A stretch of 64,000 nt of DNA from Kazachstania africana CBS 2517 (taxonomy: Eukaryota; Ascomycota; Saccharomycetes; Saccharomycetales; Saccharomycetaceae): contig NC_018944.1 in assembly GCF_000304475.1 (NCBI RefSeq), positions 1 to 64,000 on the forward strand, read 5' to 3'. Position numbers and translations under genes: made by a program. The notes under the pieces are model-generated. The model was given only the letters and a program-made list of their open reading frames with translations. It did no database searches and was not told where the DNA came from. This document shows, in pieces, positions 6,072 to 24,770 of this stretch (positions are counted from its first letter, which is position 1; the number at the start of each line of letters is the position of its first letter).

Positions 6072-8471
6072 CTAAGACGGCCCCAGCGATCTTCTACTGT
6101 CTGGCAATGCCCTCAATATTCTCATTAGGGGGTCATCCTCGTCAATCTCCCTTCTCATTGAAGCTGCCCTGGTCACCATCACTTTCACATATCCTTCACC
6201 TCTTATTCTACCTATCATTTGGAGATACTCGATAATTGTCATGTTACAATCAATAACACAAACACAATTCACACTCGCACAATCTAAGCCATTCGAAATA
6301 AGCTTGGTTCCCAGAATAACTCTAGCGGGGGAATCAGGATTCTCAAAATCATCAAAGATAGATCTCTTCGTTTCACTGTCCAAATCCGCATGAACCATGC
6401 CTACTTCGTGGTTATTCACCCTTCTTCTCACAGCATCCATCGTCGCCTTGGCACCAAAGAAAAACACCGCCTTGCTAGCAGTGCTGTTCCCCAAGTAATT
6501 CAAAATCATGGCGGCAGTCCTCTCGACAATTTGTATTTTTCTTACGTTTTCTACGTCCACAGGTATATTTTGATTAGGTGCCTTTTTTACAGCATCTACA
6601 TACAATCTCTTCTCCCACACTTCATTTTCTATTCTCCTTTCCTGGCATATTCTTTCCAACAACCACTCAGGCAGCTTAGCAAAAACAAACGCCACCTTCA
6701 AAAATGATTTCCAGTTGAGACCTTTCACTGAATGGAAAATGTCTCGAAATGATTTCTCTAGCCACAAGACATGGGCTTCATCAAAAACAAAAATGCCACG
6801 ACTACGTCTTGTGCTGAACACCTTCTCACACCTTTTCATTGCATCAGCAACACCAGCATCTCCATAGCTATCAAAACAACCGACGAGTACATCCACGCCT
6901 GAAAGATTAGCTTCAGCATGCAGGTCTGTCAACATACCTGTTTCTCCAACCACCAAACCTGCGTTTTCCAACTTCGTACGTGTGGCCATCTTCAACGATT
7001 CGTAAGGAACAGCTACAAAATGGACATATTTCCCACGTTGCTTTCTCTTGAGAGCCAACATAGGCAGAATAAATGTTAAAGATCTCCCAAAGGCGGTGAT
7101 TGCTTGAAGAGCCAGCAACCGTTCATTAGAATTCAGAACAGCACTAGTGAATCTTTCTTGAGCTGAGCTTTTAAACTCAAAGTTCTCAAACAGTTCACCG
7201 CCTGCTTTCAACAGATCATATATTCCTGCCTCGGCCTCATGACACTGACGTTCCTGTGGTTCTACAACAAGCGCCTCAAAAGTACGTTTTGTCTGTACAA
7301 GGGTGTACTGTGTTAATGATTGAAATTCTTGCGCTAGTTTTTTGTAAGCATAGTAATCATCGAAACTGCCGTTTGTTGGAAAGTCTCTACTTGGATTTAC
7401 ACCATAAACAACCTCGTGGGTTTGCTTGCTGTGTCCAAATAATGCTGGCGTACGTACCGGCACGACGTCACCTTCTAAAGAGGGCCTTATTATATCCTTC
7501 CACAAACCAGCAAGGCATTGTCTCAAGCCACTAATTTTCATATTCTCCCTTGCACTTCTTTTCTTTGGGTACTTCAACAAAATACCATTAAAAGTAGAAA
7601 GAGTCACCAACTTGAACCTCTCAACATCCACAAAAATACACGTGCACATAACAGCCAACCCAGCAGCCTGTTTTGTCCTGAGTTCCTCGATCAATGCTTC
7701 ACTCGTTTCGACCAACTGGTTGGTCTCCTCATTGAATTCGTCACCATCAGTAGCTAACAGCTCTTCAGCTTCATGCTCAATTTCTTGACGAACGGCATTT
7801 GTGAAATGGCCAATAAGCATGCTACTGTCCGTCACGTCCAACATCTGGCTCAGCAATTCGATCTCAAACGGACGTAAAATGTACACAAACCAGAATAAGT
7901 TCCTTGTCACTGGTAGGTCCATCATGAATATTCTGTTATCGAACTTTCTGTTTTTGTTATACGTCACTCTGAAGTAGAAGAGACGAGTATCTGAGTCGAC
8001 ATACAGGTTTCTGGACGTACCGCCCACAGATAGTATACTCAACTCTGTATATCTCATTGGAAATCCCGTTGAGATCCATACGCTAGCCATGAGGAGTTTT
8101 GTCATCTTATTGATAAGTTTGATGACTTTTGTTCGAATCTCAGACACAGAGGCATCTTTCGGCCTCCTCCATTTGAAATAATGTGGGGCAGCATGGCATT
8201 GCGGTAATATTTTGAATATGCCATTTGTCATGGGATCTTCCTGCATAAGCTCAATGTTTTTATTACCTAGAACGATCATATAAGCAGTTGCAGGGCTGCC
8301 AAAAGTAAACCACTCTCTCAAAGCTGTTTGACACGTATCGTATTCTATGTGAAGATCATTCTTAATCCGTGAAATAAAATTTAGCGACAGAGTCTTGGTA
8401 CCTAAACTCACAGAACCCTTTTCCAGGTCGGTTGTGACAAAGTTACGGGCTGCTATGTCCTCCTCGTTCAT
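6072..8471 (-). CDS. Telomere-linked RecQ-like helicase with recombinase-like N-terminus
   Basis: This 799-residue protein resembles subtelomeric RecQ-type helicases of fungi (TLH and Y' families). Helicase landmarks: a motif I region at residues 458-470 reading AFGRS in place of GxGKS, so the Walker lysine is Arg463; DEAH at 564-567; a motif III position reading VFAK at about 596-599; motif V near 719-730 (GTKLISNGLD); and motif VI QMIGRIRG at 751-758. Residues about 130-360 have a layout like tyrosine recombinases: MRYTEL with Arg140, then GHSxxT with Tyr356. The ATG at 8471 is the first in frame. Transcription runs towards the telomere, as for Y' ORFs on left arms. The altered motifs I and III suggest weak or no ATPase activity, or a decaying copy. 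Confidence 0.75.
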   Translation of the reverse strand: MNEEDIAARNFVTTDLEKGSVSLGTKTLSLNFISRIKNDLHIEYDTCQTALREWFTFGSPATAYMIVLGNKNIELMQEDPMTNGIFKILPQCHAAPHYFKWRRPKDASVSEIRTKVIKLINKMTKLLMASVWISTGFPMRYTELSILSVGGTSRNLYVDSDTRLFYFRVTYNKNRKFDNRIFMMDLPVTRNLFWFVYILRPFEIELLSQMLDVTDSSMLIGHFTNAVRQEIEHEAEELLATDGDEFNEETNQLVETSEALIEELRTKQAAGLAVMCTCIFVDVERFKLVTLSTFNGILLKYPKKRSARENMKISGLRQCLAGLWKDIIRPSLEGDVVPVRTPALFGHSKQTHEVVYGVNPSRDFPTNGSFDDYYAYKKLAQEFQSLTQYTLVQTKRTFEALVVEPQERQCHEAEAGIYDLLKAGGELFENFEFKSSAQERFTSAVLNSNERLLALQAITAFGRSLTFILPMLALKRKQRGKYVHFVAVPYESLKMATRTKLENAGLVVGETGMLTDLHAEANLSGVDVLVGCFDSYGDAGVADAMKRCEKVFSTRRSRGIFVFDEAHVLWLEKSFRDIFHSVKGLNWKSFLKVAFVFAKLPEWLLERICQERRIENEVWEKRLYVDAVKKAPNQNIPVDVENVRKIQIVERTAAMILNYLGNSTASKAVFFFGAKATMDAVRRRVNNHEVGMVHADLDSETKRSIFDDFENPDSPARVILGTKLISNGLDCASVNCVCVIDCNMTIIEYLQMIGRIRGEGYVKVMVTRAASMRREIDEDDPLMRILRALPDSRRSLGPS

Positions 8472-10290: not shown

Positions 10291-11641
10291 TTATGGATAT
10301 ATATGACAAAATTGATAAAGTATTGTGGTTTATTCTTGAAATCTTCACCTTCTATATGCTCGGAAAAACAGAGCAGTAGCCTGAACCTCTGCTTAAAATG
10401 GAGGTCTTCTCAAAACTGATCAAGCCCTATTTATTTGTTTTTGGATTTGAGAGAACATTTTACTCTGCCGAAAATAGTATTGAACATTTTACTGTAGAGG
10501 TTTCATTAGCATACACCAAGCCTACGTTGAGATAAGAGCTTTACAAGTGAATATATTTAGTGATATATACGAGGAAATCAGAAAGGATAAATTAGCGCGG
10601 AATAACAACAGCTCAAAAAAACAGGAACACCATTTTGCTGCTGCATGGAACATACAACAAAGCAAATCGTTCGATAAAAATTCTCTAAGATTGTTTATGC
10701 AGCCACTCAGAAGAGGGACTACTTTTGACACTTTCGAGATATGATTCTATGAGTACAGTAAATTCGAAGTTCTTCCATATTCCCTTTCTGGTACCTGAAT
10801 TTGGGAATAAGAAGTTTGTTCATACATATGAATTTTTTCAAGAGCCAAAACATATTTTCAAAAACTTGATCATAGAAGTGCCTTGAATAGTAGTGTTTGC
10901 TCCTAATGTATTGCGGTTCTTTGTATCAACTACGTTTTCTTCTGAAAGAATTGATCAACTAGATAGAAACAACATGAATGAAAATTATATAACTATAAAG
11001 TAAATAGCTCTATATAAAACTCGAATATAGTATTGAAAATTGTTCGGTTTTTCATTAGTAATTAGTGAAATTTGCCTGCAGCAATCCTAAGCGGGCCATA
11101 GCTTATGATGTCATGACGTTCTCCGCCAAGCTACTGAATACACCCGGAGGAAATATAGTGTGTCCAAAAAAGAAAATTATATGAGCACCCGTATGGAGAG
11201 ACCCTCAAGATGAAAAGATCTGAAACGTTTAATTGTTGGGACGTTACCGAGCTCGTTACTAGGAAGATTTCACAGAAGTTCCATTTCTACCGAACAAATT
11301 GACATTTACATATTCTTCAAAAACAAAGTTAAACTTTAATTACAAGCTCAAAAGCTCAGTTTTATATACAACATTTACATAATCTTTCAGTATTATGAAT
11401 ACCCTCAAAATAAGCTGTACTACGCCAGGCATGCATATAGATATATATGCCTATGTGCATACAAGAAAATGCTGTCGTGAAAATTTTTGGAGTGTGCTTT
11501 CTATAATATATAAAGAGGGCAAATTGCTAAGACTTTTATTCAAAAATCGAGTTCTTCTGATATATATCTTCCTTGCTGTCATTTTTTTATATTACTAAAG
11601 AATCTGTATAGTGACAATTCAGGCTGAAAAACACTGATACA
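10291..11641. other. Intergenic region between divergent toxin-like genes
   Basis: A stretch of 1.35 kb between the starts of the truncated and intact K1-like genes. Short frames here lack convincing composition. The right part is the promoter of the intact gene and holds its TATA box. Confidence 0.5.
11507..11515 (+). promoter_or_regulatory. TATA box of the toxin-like gene
   Basis: TATATAAAG lies 127 bp upstream of the ATG at 11642, a normal yeast distance. No other strong TATA element lies closer. Confidence 0.5.
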
Positions 11642-12613
11642 ATGTCTTTACTTTTCTTAAAAAAAATGTTAAGAACAGGCGCATTATTGGGTTTATGCAG
11701 TTTAATGCTTTGCGCAATGCCCGGTTTTGGAACCCATGCTGTCGCTTTGGTTAAGAGAGGTTGGAAGAGCTTTCTTCTTAATGCAGGTACTGTATTTTTT
11801 GGTGAGATTGCAACAGGTGCGTATTATGTGAAAGCCCTTACATGTAATGAGGCTGCTATGGTGGCAATTATTGGCGCGAACGTTGAAGGTGCAGTGGCTT
11901 GTATTGGTGCTTATGTTGTCGGTGCTGCTGCTGCGGCTATATTTGCTGGACTCGCTGCAGAAGGTGGTAGCGCTGGTTGGGTTTGGTGGAAGGGATCAGG
12001 GATTGCCAAAAGGGATACGGTTATCACTCAAGAGTTACCGCTCGCTAATATGACACTGTACGGTGGCCCAGCAGTTACAAGCTATCATATTGACTACCTT
12101 AATCAAACTCTAGGAAAGTATTTTGAGAATGTAGGTTTTGTTTCAAAAGCCGGTAATGGACTGGAAGATGGCATTACAAAACGTAGCATCTTGCCTGAAA
12201 TGGTAGTTTGGAGAATCGAAGAATCTACCCATAATGTGACAGTATTGGTCGCTGACGAGCATTTTGAAAAATCTGTCACTGCTTACAGGTCATATATTGA
12301 TAGCAATTACACCTACTTTGGCAAACGTGATGACGGCGAATGGTTAAGTTATAATACATATGGCTTTAATGTTGCTGCTTCTGAGTTTTGGGCTTTGGAT
12401 ATGAAAGAAGACGCCAATGCAGCAGCGAACGACATCGGAAATATGGTTGTTTCTCAAATTCAGCCATGCACGGAAACAGATTGTTATGGGGTAGAAAATA
12501 AATTCTGTGCTTCTTGGGGAGATAGTGAAACAATGGGAGACCGGTCTATTATCGTCGGAGAAGTTTATATTGCCGCATACGGGGGAATTGATACTGAATG
12601 TCAAAGTGGTTAG
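11642..12613 (+). CDS. K1-like killer preprotoxin (secreted, Kex2-processed)
   Basis: A 323-residue protein, close in length to the K1 killer preprotoxin (316). It has a hydrophobic signal region (about 10-30) and Lys-Arg Kex2-type sites at 38-39, 123-124, 180-181 and 228-229, close to the known K1 processing layout. The alpha-like segment (40-122) is Ala/Gly-rich with hydrophobic stretches at about 70-107 and Cys68/Cys87. The segment 125-227 carries four N-glycosylation sequons (Asn136, 154, 198, 222), as expected of the glycosylated gamma peptide. The beta-like segment (230-323) has Cys276, 281, 289 and 320. K1 acts as a disulphide-linked alpha/beta toxin on the membrane of sensitive yeast, with the precursor giving immunity. 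Family assignment rests on architecture, not on a search. A truncated paralogue lies upstream on the other strand. Confidence 0.7.
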   Translation: MSLLFLKKMLRTGALLGLCSLMLCAMPGFGTHAVALVKRGWKSFLLNAGTVFFGEIATGAYYVKALTCNEAAMVAIIGANVEGAVACIGAYVVGAAAAAIFAGLAAEGGSAGWVWWKGSGIAKRDTVITQELPLANMTLYGGPAVTSYHIDYLNQTLGKYFENVGFVSKAGNGLEDGITKRSILPEMVVWRIEESTHNVTVLVADEHFEKSVTAYRSYIDSNYTYFGKRDDGEWLSYNTYGFNVAASEFWALDMKEDANAAANDIGNMVVSQIQPCTETDCYGVENKFCASWGDSETMGDRSIIVGEVYIAAYGGIDTECQSG

Positions 12614-14506
12614 AAATAATCACGTTACAACTTACTGTGATAGTGATCCATTTTTGTATCTTATTTCTGTCGGGTGTAGTATTAGCAATTTATGTAAGAT
12701 AGTTCTTTTATATATGTCATCCTTCATGGTACTAGATGTGTATTACAACCATTAGAAATTTCGCTTACGTTCAAAAGTATTAAAAAAATATAGATCTTGT
12801 AAGTCTGGCTATAATACTTTGAAGCTATAGCATTGGATTTCAAGCCACTCTTGTGTAAAATGTAATTGAAATAAATAAGCAAGACAATCCAAAAATAGGC
12901 TTATAACACCCGTAAATCTTCAGAAGTAGAATTTTTCAGATTTCACCCCAATGTAGCCATCGTTTTTGAAATGACAAGGCATCTTTACCATGAAGTAGAG
13001 GTCGCGAGGTTTTATTGGCATACTTCCCAACTAACAGTTAATCAAAGTTTCAATTGCCGAGAGGGAGTTAGAACACTTGAAAAATGTAAAAACACAGAAC
13101 GTTGACTAATTTCCTTCTCAGAATGGATACTATAACTTTACGAGGGTAAATTATCTTCAATAGTAACAAATCTCTCTTTAACAATCACAGACAAACCAAT
13201 AGGGAACAGTTCGTTGCTTCGGGCAACCGCAAAATCCTAAATTGTACCTTATCTCTTTTTCAACTTCATCAGTTGAGAATGATTGATATATTTTGCCATT
13301 AGTTCCTAACCCTATATGTTGAAATAACAATAGCAGGGCGAATGATACTAGACGGTAAATGGGAGGTAAAACAACATGGTTTTTCGTCTTCGTCGCAATC
13401 AAAATAACCAAAGAGTTTGATAAAGACTTTTAGAGCATCTAATATATTCCTATATGATCTCATCTAAACAACAGGTATGGACCCATGCTGTAAAATATTG
13501 GTGCAAACTGTTTTCCATCAACAAATTGTATGCAGCACCACACAAATATTTATAACATCATTAAGCACAACAAAACTGTTTACCTTTTCAACGTCAATCA
13601 CTGATAGAAAGCCCAGATCTGACTGAGAATATTTAGACCTCGCGACGCTGCCGACAAGCGGGCGATAAATTGATAGATACTATTATCATGATCTCTGAAA
13701 AAAACAGCCGGAAGAGTGAGACGTTTGGCAAAAGTTGGTCTATCCTAAGATCATAAATGATCAACTAGGCTATGGTTTCTAATTCCAATATATAATAAGA
13801 CGCTGAATTTTGGGAGCATTTCATTATCGACCAGCTGTGACTTATGTTCATTCCTTCTAGCCATCGAGACAGACAGTAATTGTAGCGAGTACTTACGATA
13901 GGAGTTCTTCACAAAGTATTGCGTTAAAACCTTATTTATTACTACATAAACTAAGCAATAGAAAAATCAAAATTGAAAGACGAAGAAGAAAAAGAGAGTA
14001 CATGTCTAGCAATCCATTGCTCTACTGGGGTTTTGACCTTTTTGTCCGGCAGCAATATACTGGTAAACTGGAAAAAAGTATTTACGCTGTTCAGCTTGTA
14101 TATACCTTACTTCGCGGGAAATTATATCGGCATGTTCCATTGCAAGAGTCGGTTTTCAAACCTGGACTAGTACGTTAAAGACATGCTACCGGTGAAGCTG
14201 CAACAGTTTGGTAAGATAGTTGTAGTTGTTGTGTCACTTCGACTCATCTTAGGAGAATCATTGATACGTACAGATCCCATGATACTAAGAGCTATATAGG
14301 GAGACCAAAATTTAAGTTGGCGCTTGAGGATTGTTGAGCCAACTGTAATTTTATTGAGCTTCTGACTTTTATTCGTAGTAAAAATATAAATTAAAAGTTC
14401 AAACCTCTAACTTTCCTTTCGTAAAGAAAAAAAATTCTTACAACATATTTTGGTACAGAATGCATGGCAATAACCTCAACTAGTTCAACTGGCCAAAATG
14501 CTTGAT
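12614..14506. other. Intergenic, no supported gene
   Basis: About 1.9 kb without a convincing gene. A minus-strand frame at 13178-13411 has a hydrophobic stretch and a cysteine-rich end but contains no ATG, so I do not call it. Confidence 0.5.
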
Positions 14507-15009: not shown

Positions 15010-15746
15010 ATGTTTATACTGGTATTTTTATTTTTGGTAAAAGTTGCGTTTTGTCAAGTTACTATTCCACATCTCACAAATTCGTTCCCAACTTCCGTAG
15101 ATGGATGTAAGACAGGGAGCTTCATAACGTCCCGTGAACTTTCTGCTTATTGGGATGGTGACTTACCTTATACTAATACCGAGGTCAACATTGGAAGTGC
15201 AGTTCAAACCCCTTACACAGTTCTCGTTGCCGCTCAGGGCAATATTCAGGCCATCAAGGTAACCGACACAGACTCTGGTTACTAGGTTTCTACGGAGGTA
15301 TGCAGCTCGATGAAGTCACAAGCTTAGCGGCCACGCTTTGTAGTGGTCTGCTCCTGGAGTTTGACGGTATTAACAATTACTTCTACGTGGAATCTATTAA
15401 TGGTGATCCAAAGACTACGTTTTGATTTATCATTGCTAAAGAAGGTTATAAGGAGTATGTCAATGAAGGGGTCAAGATGTGGAGTATGGGTAGAAGCTAT
15501 TACTTTTACACAAGTGGCCAATCTATTGGAGAAGTGAATTTCTGTGAACGTTTTGCAGACGAAGCATATACCCCGGTAAACTCTGATGGTTTCGGTGAGT
15601 GTATCTCAGTCTTCTATGATTCCTCAAAAAGTTTCGAAGAGCAGACTGGCTTGACAGATGATCTTCTTTATATCTACAATAATGGCACTGTTTCATTCAA
15701 CGACGGTGACAAAGTTTGTATGACTATCGGTACTGCTACAGCATGA
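15010..15746 (+). pseudogene. Secreted four-cysteine family member, broken (copy 1)
   Basis: A relative of the proteins at 17067 and 24030 with the same signal peptide, AYWDGDLP motif, NNYFYVES-GDPKTT block and C-terminal EEQTGLTDDLLY motif. Two breaks are visible: a frameshift close to 15281, where the first frame runs into TAG at 15283-15285, and an in-frame TGA at 15423-15425 in place of a Tyr-Gly stretch found in the relatives. The downstream part (15426-15746) stays open to a normal stop, so inactivation looks fairly recent. Function of the family is unknown. Confidence 0.8.
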
Positions 15747-17066: not shown

Positions 17067-17810
17067 ATGTTCCTATTAATCCTGTATTTTTTACTTCCTC
17101 TAGCCCTCTGTGAAATAACTATACCAGATGTGGGCGATGGATGGTTTCCCACTTCATCAAGCGATTGCGGCACTAATCTAATTTCCGCTCACAGTTTTTA
17201 TGCTTATTGGGATGGCGACTTGCCAAATTCTAATGATGTCAACTTTGCAGGTGCTCTAGACGATATTGTGCTGGTTCGAGATAATGCAGGGGGAAATATT
17301 CAAGCAATCAGAGTAAGTCAGGATGATTACATGATAGGCACATTTGGAGGTAATCAGCTTGACTCTATATCTAGCGACCTTCTCGATACTTATGCTGCTG
17401 TTCTAATAGTCGAAAATGGAATAAATGATTACTTTTATATTGAATCTATTACCGGTGACCCAAAAACTACCTATGGGTTTATCGCCGCAACAGGAGATCT
17501 AAGTTTTGAGTATGTCACTGAGGCAATAAAGTTTTGGAGTAGGGGTGAAAGCTACAATTTTGCCACCAGCAGACAATTTATTAATGAATATAATTTATGC
17601 GAGCACTCAGCCGACGACGCATATACCTTGATCAACTCGTCATATTTTGGTGACTGCATTTCGATTACTTATAACTCTTCACAAACTTTAGAGGAGCAGA
17701 CTGGCTTAGCAACTGATCTTCTCTATGTTTACAATGGTGGTACAACTTCTTTTAATGACGGCGATAAGGTCTGTGTTTCTATTGGTGCTGTCCCCGACAA
17801 TACTCAATAG
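17067..17810 (+). CDS. Secreted four-cysteine protein, subtelomeric family (copy 2)
   Basis: A 247-residue protein I do not recognise from any named family. The signal peptide is residues 1-15, with cleavage likely before EITIP. The mature part has four cysteines (34, 178, 197, 236) shared with copy 3, suggesting two disulphides, plus sequons at Asn190 and Asn203. Conserved blocks are AYWDGDLPN (about 46-54), DYFYIES-GDPKTTYGFI (about 121-139) and LEEQTGLATDLLYVYN (208-223). No transmembrane segment, GPI signal or dibasic site is evident, so a soluble secreted protein is expected. It is one of three tandem, same-strand family members with shared promoter elements, close to a K1-like toxin gene. 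Role unknown. Confidence 0.75.
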   Translation: MFLLILYFLLPLALCEITIPDVGDGWFPTSSSDCGTNLISAHSFYAYWDGDLPNSNDVNFAGALDDIVLVRDNAGGNIQAIRVSQDDYMIGTFGGNQLDSISSDLLDTYAAVLIVENGINDYFYIESITGDPKTTYGFIAATGDLSFEYVTEAIKFWSRGESYNFATSRQFINEYNLCEHSADDAYTLINSSYFGDCISITYNSSQTLEEQTGLATDLLYVYNGGTTSFNDGDKVCVSIGAVPDNTQ

Positions 17811-24029: not shown

Positions 24030-24770
24030 ATGTTGTTTTGTTTAGCGTTATTCTTCCTCATCCAAACCGTCTTTTCTGAACTTACTCTTCCAGATACCAT
24101 AGCAGATGTATTTCCATCCTCTCAAGCTAACTGCTCAGAAGGAACTTTCATGATGACGCATGAATGGTTCGCTTACTGGGATGGAGTTTTGCCCAATGAT
24201 ACTGTAGCGGATGCGGCAGAGTTTGTAGCCCAGTTGACCCGGAATCCTTACGGAGATGCCGGAAACAACCAATTGTATAAACTAACTGACACTGGATATA
24301 CTGTCGCTGTTTTTGGAGGAATTCAAGTTAATGATTATATGGAGTTCTTGTTGACTGCCTTGGGCACCTACATCACCAATGCTAATGGTGTTAACAACTA
24401 TTTCTATCTTGAATCTCATACAGGTGACCCAAAAACTACTTATGGTTTTATTGTTGCTAAGGAAGAATATGAATCTTATGTTGATGAGGCTGTCAAGACA
24501 TGGAGTATGGGTAAGAGTTATGATCTCTACAATAGTACTACCCAATCTATTGGTAACATTAACATCTGCCAACAACTAGCGGAAGAAGCTTATGCCCCGG
24601 TTAACTCGGCTGATTTTGGTGAATGCATCTCAATTTTCTATGATTCGTCAAAGACTATTGAGGAACAGACTGGTTTGACAGATGATCTATTGTACGTCTA
24701 CAATAATGGCACTGTTTCCTTTAATGATGGTGACAGAGTTTGTATCTCTCTTGGTACAGCAAGCGAATAA
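24030..24770 (+). CDS. Secreted four-cysteine protein, subtelomeric family (copy 3)
   Basis: A 246-residue protein of unknown function, a paralogue of the product at 17067. The signal peptide is residues 1-16 (before ELTLP). Cysteines are at 35, 180, 199 and 238, equivalent to those of copy 2. Sequons are at Asn56, Asn168 and Asn226. Conserved blocks are AYWDGVLPND (48-57), NNYFYLES-GDPKTTYGFIVA (122-143), TWSMGKSY (157-164) and EEQTGLTDDLLYVYNNGT (211-228). The broken copy 1 is closer to this protein than to copy 2 in the C-terminal half. No membrane anchor is seen. Lineage-specific expansion near a chromosome end fits a secreted effector, toxin or surface-interaction role, but nothing in the sequence proves one. 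Confidence 0.75.
   Translation: MLFCLALFFLIQTVFSELTLPDTIADVFPSSQANCSEGTFMMTHEWFAYWDGVLPNDTVADAAEFVAQLTRNPYGDAGNNQLYKLTDTGYTVAVFGGIQVNDYMEFLLTALGTYITNANGVNNYFYLESHTGDPKTTYGFIVAKEEYESYVDEAVKTWSMGKSYDLYNSTTQSIGNINICQQLAEEAYAPVNSADFGECISIFYDSSKTIEEQTGLTDDLLYVYNNGTVSFNDGDRVCISLGTASE

Follow-up and report, generated by a model that had tools for sequence, protein, structure and literature searches.

To which family of killer toxins does the 323-residue open reading frame close to the start of contig C5 of Kazachstania africana CBS 2517 belong, and how did such a gene come to stand on a chromosome? The sequence-only reading of this locus had proposed a chromosomal K1-like killer preprotoxin gene. 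A chromosomal gene of the killer preprotoxin type was indeed found, but the likeness to K1 was not upheld, since the lengths of the precursor pieces, the cysteines, the residues of the beta part and the Pfam domain all favour K2.

Location and layout of the precursor

The window, i.e. the whole stretch of 64,000 bases analysed (C5:1-64000), is the start of a contig of 925,516 bases in a genome of 11,130,140 bases on 12 contigs, and the gene is accordingly subtelomeric, as had been proposed. The letter E in the locus tags suggests that contig C5 is chromosome 5 of K. africana. The frame opens with the ATG at 11642, closes with the stop codon ending at 12613 and includes no internal stop (Table 1), while in-frame stops are located 10-11 codons 5' of the ATG. 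That this is an intact gene of the preprotoxin type is borne out by the uninterrupted frame and by paralogue matches across most of its length, one of which, at C5:916706 in the protein search of the genome, showed 42% identity across residues 35-322 (E 1e-67). Besides the TATA-box-like sequence listed in Table 1, a second match to TATAWAWR is located 200 bases upstream of the ATG, the expected number being 0.27 matches per 400 bases. By DNA search, positions 11000-13300 gave no match elsewhere in the K. africana genome, and duplicated flanks were not detected.

Table 1. Features of the preprotoxin locus (window coordinates; residues are those of the 323-residue product)
Feature	Position	Strand	Remarks
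ORF of 128 residues; remnant of a related prepro-alpha segment	9904..10290	-	diverges about like its flank
TATA-box-like TATATAAA	11507..11514	+	135 bases upstream of ATG; match to TATAWAWR
GAAAAA	11626..11631	+	16 bases upstream of ATG; meaning uncertain
Putative K2-type killer preprotoxin gene	11642..12613	+	323 residues plus stop; based on frame, paralogues, Pfam, K2 piece lengths and positions
Prepro part, residues 1-39	11642..11758	+	hydrophobic putative signal region; ends with KR 38-39
Alpha part, residues 40-124	11759..12013	+	Cys 68 and 87; ends with KR 123-124
Hydrophobic central stretch, residues 83-106	11888..11959	+	hydropathy; placed like the K2 central helix
Gamma part, residues 125-229	12014..12328	+	internal KR 180-181; four sequons
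PF17276 (DUF5341) match, residues 210-321	12269..12604	+	25.8 bits, cut-off 25
Beta part, residues 230-323	12329..12610	+	Cys 276, 281, 289 and 320; K2 positions

Translation confirmed the four Lys-Arg sites at residues 38-39, 123-124, 180-181 and 228-229 that had been read earlier, and the pieces that follow the first site are 85, 57, 48 and 94 residues in length. The four Lys-Arg pairs in 323 residues compare with 0.90 expected (Poisson P 0.013), as calculated from 30 such pairs in 10,803 residues, which were taken from 19 of the 22 further ORFs in the window that reach at least 150 residues. Since this count says little by itself, the case is carried by the spacing of the sites and by the homologues. 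The signal region holds Cys 19 and 24. The description of the alpha-like segment as hydrophobic agrees with its mean Kyte-Doolittle value of 0.82 and with 19-residue windows reaching 2.16 (residues 84-102), and the N-glycosylation sequons, at residues 136, 154, 198 and 222, are all four located within the gamma-like part, as had been noticed together with the cysteines of the beta-like C-terminus.

Assignment to the K2 family

Based on the sites printed in PMC13211469, the corresponding pieces are 86, 56, 47 and 94 residues long in K2 and 105, 39, 45 and 83 residues in K1, giving a summed length difference from the gene product of 3 for K2 versus 52 for K1. The K1 sites on which the sequence-only reading relied (44, 149, 188 and 233) agree with those in that source, but the layout of the gene product turned out to fit them poorly. 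The comparison with K2 was made through published sites and residue positions (PMC13211469, PMC13404059), not through the whole K2 sequence, and the positions compared, without gaps, were the alpha and beta positions that PMC13404059 names as conserved, as critical or as part of a disulfide bond, leaving the gain-of-function P289 and Y301 outside the count. At offset 39, 13 of the 16 K2 beta positions are occupied by the identical residue, and at offset 41, seven of the 11 alpha positions; among 20,000 shuffles, each scored at the best of 41 offsets, the maximum was 7/16 for beta and 6/11 for alpha. At the remaining three beta positions the exchanges are conservative (L-I, I-V, V-I), and the remaining four alpha positions include one aromatic-for-aromatic exchange (W-F) and three different residues. 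As judged from positions only, the K2 disulfide pairs 109-128, 315-320 and 328-359 correspond to residues 68-87, 276-281 and 289-320 of the gene product. The alpha pair of K2 is printed in PMC13404059 both as C109-C129 and as C109-C128; the latter was chosen because its spacing equals that of 68-87, and reading C109-C129 instead lowers the alpha count to 6/11, which was equalled by 6 of the 20,000 shuffles. The K2 central helix to which the hydrophobic stretch in Table 1 was compared comprises residues 125-148 (PMC13404059). With respect to the critical aromatics of K2 gamma, which are outside the count, W230 coincides with a Trp at offset 40, while Y211 and Y242 found no match at offsets 38 to 42.

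DUF5341, the sole Pfam match of the gene product with a score narrowly above the cut-off, marks K2, K21/K66 and KHS in the literature (PMC13211469, PMC13404059, PMC6213463). Among the relatives described below, KAFR_0E04500 (19.3) and P0002 (23.9) scored under the cut-off of 25 for this domain, and the Pfam search gave no DUF5341 match for P0003. In K1, three plus three cysteines are present, with an interchain bond C92-C239 (PMC13211469), whereas the gene product carries two in alpha and four in beta, and the comparison of positions detected no cysteine at the beta place that corresponds to the interchain bond of K1. Taken with an estimated probability of about 0.86, the gene would encode the precursor of a K2-type toxin of the K2 (DUF5341) family, predicted from the sequence to be a secreted and Kex2-processed membrane toxin.

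An affiliation with the K1 family (K1, K1L and KKT), as originally proposed, has in its favour the same four-part layout, the presence of KKT genes in K. africana and the GAAAAA element shortly upstream of the ATG. According to Fredericks et al. 2021 (PMC7888664), K1-like KKT genes of K. africana are mostly subtelomeric, their start codons are preceded by GAAAAA, and KaKKT2, when expressed in S. cerevisiae, produced zones of growth inhibition. The flanks of the KKT genes are, however, 83-94% alike over about 2 kb (PMC7888664), and the present gene was placed outside the KKT set because its surroundings of 2.3 kb are without DNA match elsewhere in the genome. The homologues of K1 and of K2 are also handled as separate families in PMC13211469. 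The K1 assignment, rejected on piece lengths, cysteine plan and the DUF5341 domain, is considered very improbable.

Comparison with known killer systems extends this picture. The S. cerevisiae toxin K2, encoded by the M2 satellite, is matched within one residue in the length of every piece, in the cysteines of the three disulfide pairs and in a sequon located 12 residues into gamma; it differs in being encoded on dsRNA while the present gene is chromosomal, in a prepro part of 79 residues, about 40 longer than that of the gene product, and in its free C300, at the place of which the gene product has no cysteine. KHS1, on an S. cerevisiae chromosome like the present gene on its own, and K21/K66 share the DUF5341 family and the four-part precursor, but the alpha (70 and 69 residues) and beta (106 and 113 residues) parts of K21 and KHS differ from the 85 and 94 residues found here, and K21 has only four cysteines. 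With K1, K1L and KKT, the order of the parts and the general plan are shared; K1 and K1L differ in piece lengths and in the three-plus-three cysteines, which in K1 include the interchain bond. An extended N-terminus before the signal region is described as shared in the K2 family, although the grouping itself rests on sequence homology (PMC13211469); the gene product, with 39 instead of 79 prepro residues, is without this extension.

Structure models and searches outside the genome added little. Two AlphaFold models, with a mean pLDDT of 37.4 and 45.2, are too poor to show whether the gene product has the fold of the K2 family, a single alpha/beta layer built around a central helix, and with such a low-pLDDT query Foldseek matched 257 viral models at E <= 10 and none at E <= 0.001. 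Sequence searches of PDB gave no convincing hit, the lowest E values being 0.2 and 1.6. Apart from proteins of K. africana itself, homologue searches identified P0002 (46% identical to the gene product) and P0003 (39%); the two profile searches scored the 7,999 and 8,000 candidates with the largest number of shared words, and relatives may therefore have escaped them. A full-text literature search for KAFR_0E00 returned no mention; the gene may be listed in supplementary tables.

Relatives in the K. africana genome

At least 14 related loci, including this gene, were identified in the genome. Of these, 13 are located no more than 40 kb from the end of a contig, and the remaining one is at C2:673 kb. 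The number combines nine places from the protein search and 12 from the DUF5341 search, the gene being included in both, and these are lower bounds, although some of the hits in the DUF5341 genome search are weak, with E values as high as 0.09. Several of the relatives are shortened or contain stops. The nearest relatives in K. africana are KAFR_0E04500, 40% identical to the gene product, and the N-terminally truncated KAFR_0B00117 (229 residues), 42% identical; KAFR_0C06580 of strain CBS 2517 was also named by the homologue search.

KAFR_0E04500, for which an identity of 32% to K2 was published in 2017 (PMC5618225), is identical to a 374-residue ORF at C5:916.7-917.8 kb, near the opposite end of the chromosome that carries the present gene. 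It resembles the gene product in the corresponding Lys-Arg sites and in the C-terminal cysteine pattern but has a longer N-terminus, and no DNA match was found between the flanks of the two genes. Between KAFR_0E04500 and KAFR_0B00117, dN/dS was 0.13 over 229 codons, and this branch is therefore considered to be kept under purifying selection. For the present gene and its paralogue, selection is poorly measurable because synonymous sites are saturated (dS 3.0). The chromosomal K2-like gene is an additional intact member of the killer-type set already known from K. africana. The surprise attached earlier to a chromosomal location is also smaller: the gene is chromosomal as stated, but chromosomal KHS1, the KKT genes and KAFR_0E04500 have all been published, the latter two from K. 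africana.

Two further loci were observed. At C7:9973-10944, an intact DUF5341 preprotoxin-like protein of 323 residues is encoded, 26% identical and with four Lys-Arg sites by eye. The region C2:668001-678000 forms a deep-internal island in which helicase-like fragments occur together with a DUF5341 gene and a broken relic of prepro-alpha, and looks like a piece of subtelomere.

Genes neighbouring the preprotoxin gene

The 128-residue ORF on the minus strand (Table 1) belongs to a duplicated segment that is also present at C2:671 kb and C1:1,750 kb (70% and 79% alike over 1,271 and 588 bases, respectively). The window copy of the ORF has no interruption, while the copies on C2 and C1 were matched in pieces or with stops; the relics related to it, at 671.7 kb of C2 and 1,750.6 kb of C1, are both broken. 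At the three codon positions, the ORF differs by 0.26/0.22/0.20 from the C2 copy and by 0.24/0.24/0.31 from the C1 copy, as compared with 0.27 (C2) and 0.21 (C1) in the downstream flank and 0.28 (C2) in the upstream flank, where the C1 copy is poorly aligned (0.52). The contrast is given by the toxin pair KAFR_0E04500 and KAFR_0B00117, with differences of 0.14/0.08/0.38. A role of this ORF as an immunity gene is not supported, since its three codon positions differ about equally and at nearly the rate of the flank, which makes it a poor candidate.

Among other genes in the window, a helicase-like gene of 799 residues is located at 6072-8471 on the minus strand, with fragmentary relatives in six of the 13 genome stretches examined. 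A family of proteins of 246-247 residues, with signal-like N-termini by eye, is encoded on the plus strand at 15010-15737, 17067-17810 and 24030-24770; one search of the genome gave 20 matching stretches (itself included), several with stops, and one copy at C7:793629-794369 is 99% identical. The Pfam search gave no match for the two intact members among these three.

Origin of the gene

Capture of the gene from a dsRNA satellite is possible. K2 is satellite-encoded, and a recent integration of cDNA from a dsRNA killer satellite would be compatible with membership in the K2 family. Within 20 bases upstream, GAAAAA is present in two of the 12 distinct ORFs of the family, against about 0.2 expected as estimated from the 60-base rate; the second ORF is that of the DUF5341 locus at C2:673 kb, with the element 14 bases upstream. 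As a mark of satellite origin, GAAAAA is suggestive but not conclusive. The element is nevertheless common, being present in 5-6% of 60-base stretches and within 60 bases upstream of three of the 21 ORFs of at least 200 residues, this gene among the 21, although within 25 bases it precedes this gene alone; in addition, it is uncertain for several relatives which codon is the start. Against a recent event there is also the divergence of the nearest full-length paralogue, which at about 40% identity and with saturated synonymous sites indicates that the group is old in the K. africana genome, and such a diverse and old group argues against a recent single capture. Duplicated flanks are missing, and among viral contigs, in a collection that may hold few dsRNA satellites, 52 pattern matches yielded no confirmed relative. 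Recent integration is on these grounds regarded as improbable.

Tentatively, and with rather low likelihood, the K2-type toxins of budding yeasts may be considered an old chromosomal gene family; this gene would be one of its intact survivors, and the M2 satellite would have acquired its toxin from such a gene. If this is true, the N-terminal immunity peptide would not be universal in the K2 family, and the self-protection of this gene would lie elsewhere.

Proposed mechanism and immunity

As a K2-type precursor, the product would enter the secretory pathway, where Kex2 is predicted from the motifs to cut after residues 39, 124, 181 and 229 and, by analogy with K2, Kex1 may also take part in processing. 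Gamma would then be removed, and the alpha chain of 85 residues and the beta chain of 94 residues would remain associated without an interchain disulfide. By the same analogy, this non-covalent alpha/beta toxin might dock on glucan of the cell wall and the alpha helix might then damage the membrane.

The gene could instead be a member of the K2 family that is no longer a toxin, being silenced, losing its function or serving another job such as immunity or the cell wall. Such a state, unlikely on balance but to be taken seriously, would be in line with the truncated or interrupted relatives in the genome and with the DUF5341 entries, many of which are uncharacterised proteins and some of which are associated with the wall; the intact frame and the retention of four processing motifs and of all six K2 disulfide cysteines speak against it.

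The immunity to K2 resides in its long prepro region (PMC13404059). For a toxin precursor with the short prepro part found here, either this short part is enough, or another part of the precursor protects, or another gene does so. With its assignment corrected from K1 to K2, the gene would provide a natural case for asking whether a K2-type toxin without the N-terminal extension of K2 still protects the producing cell, and would bear on whether toxins passed from chromosomes to satellites or in the opposite direction.
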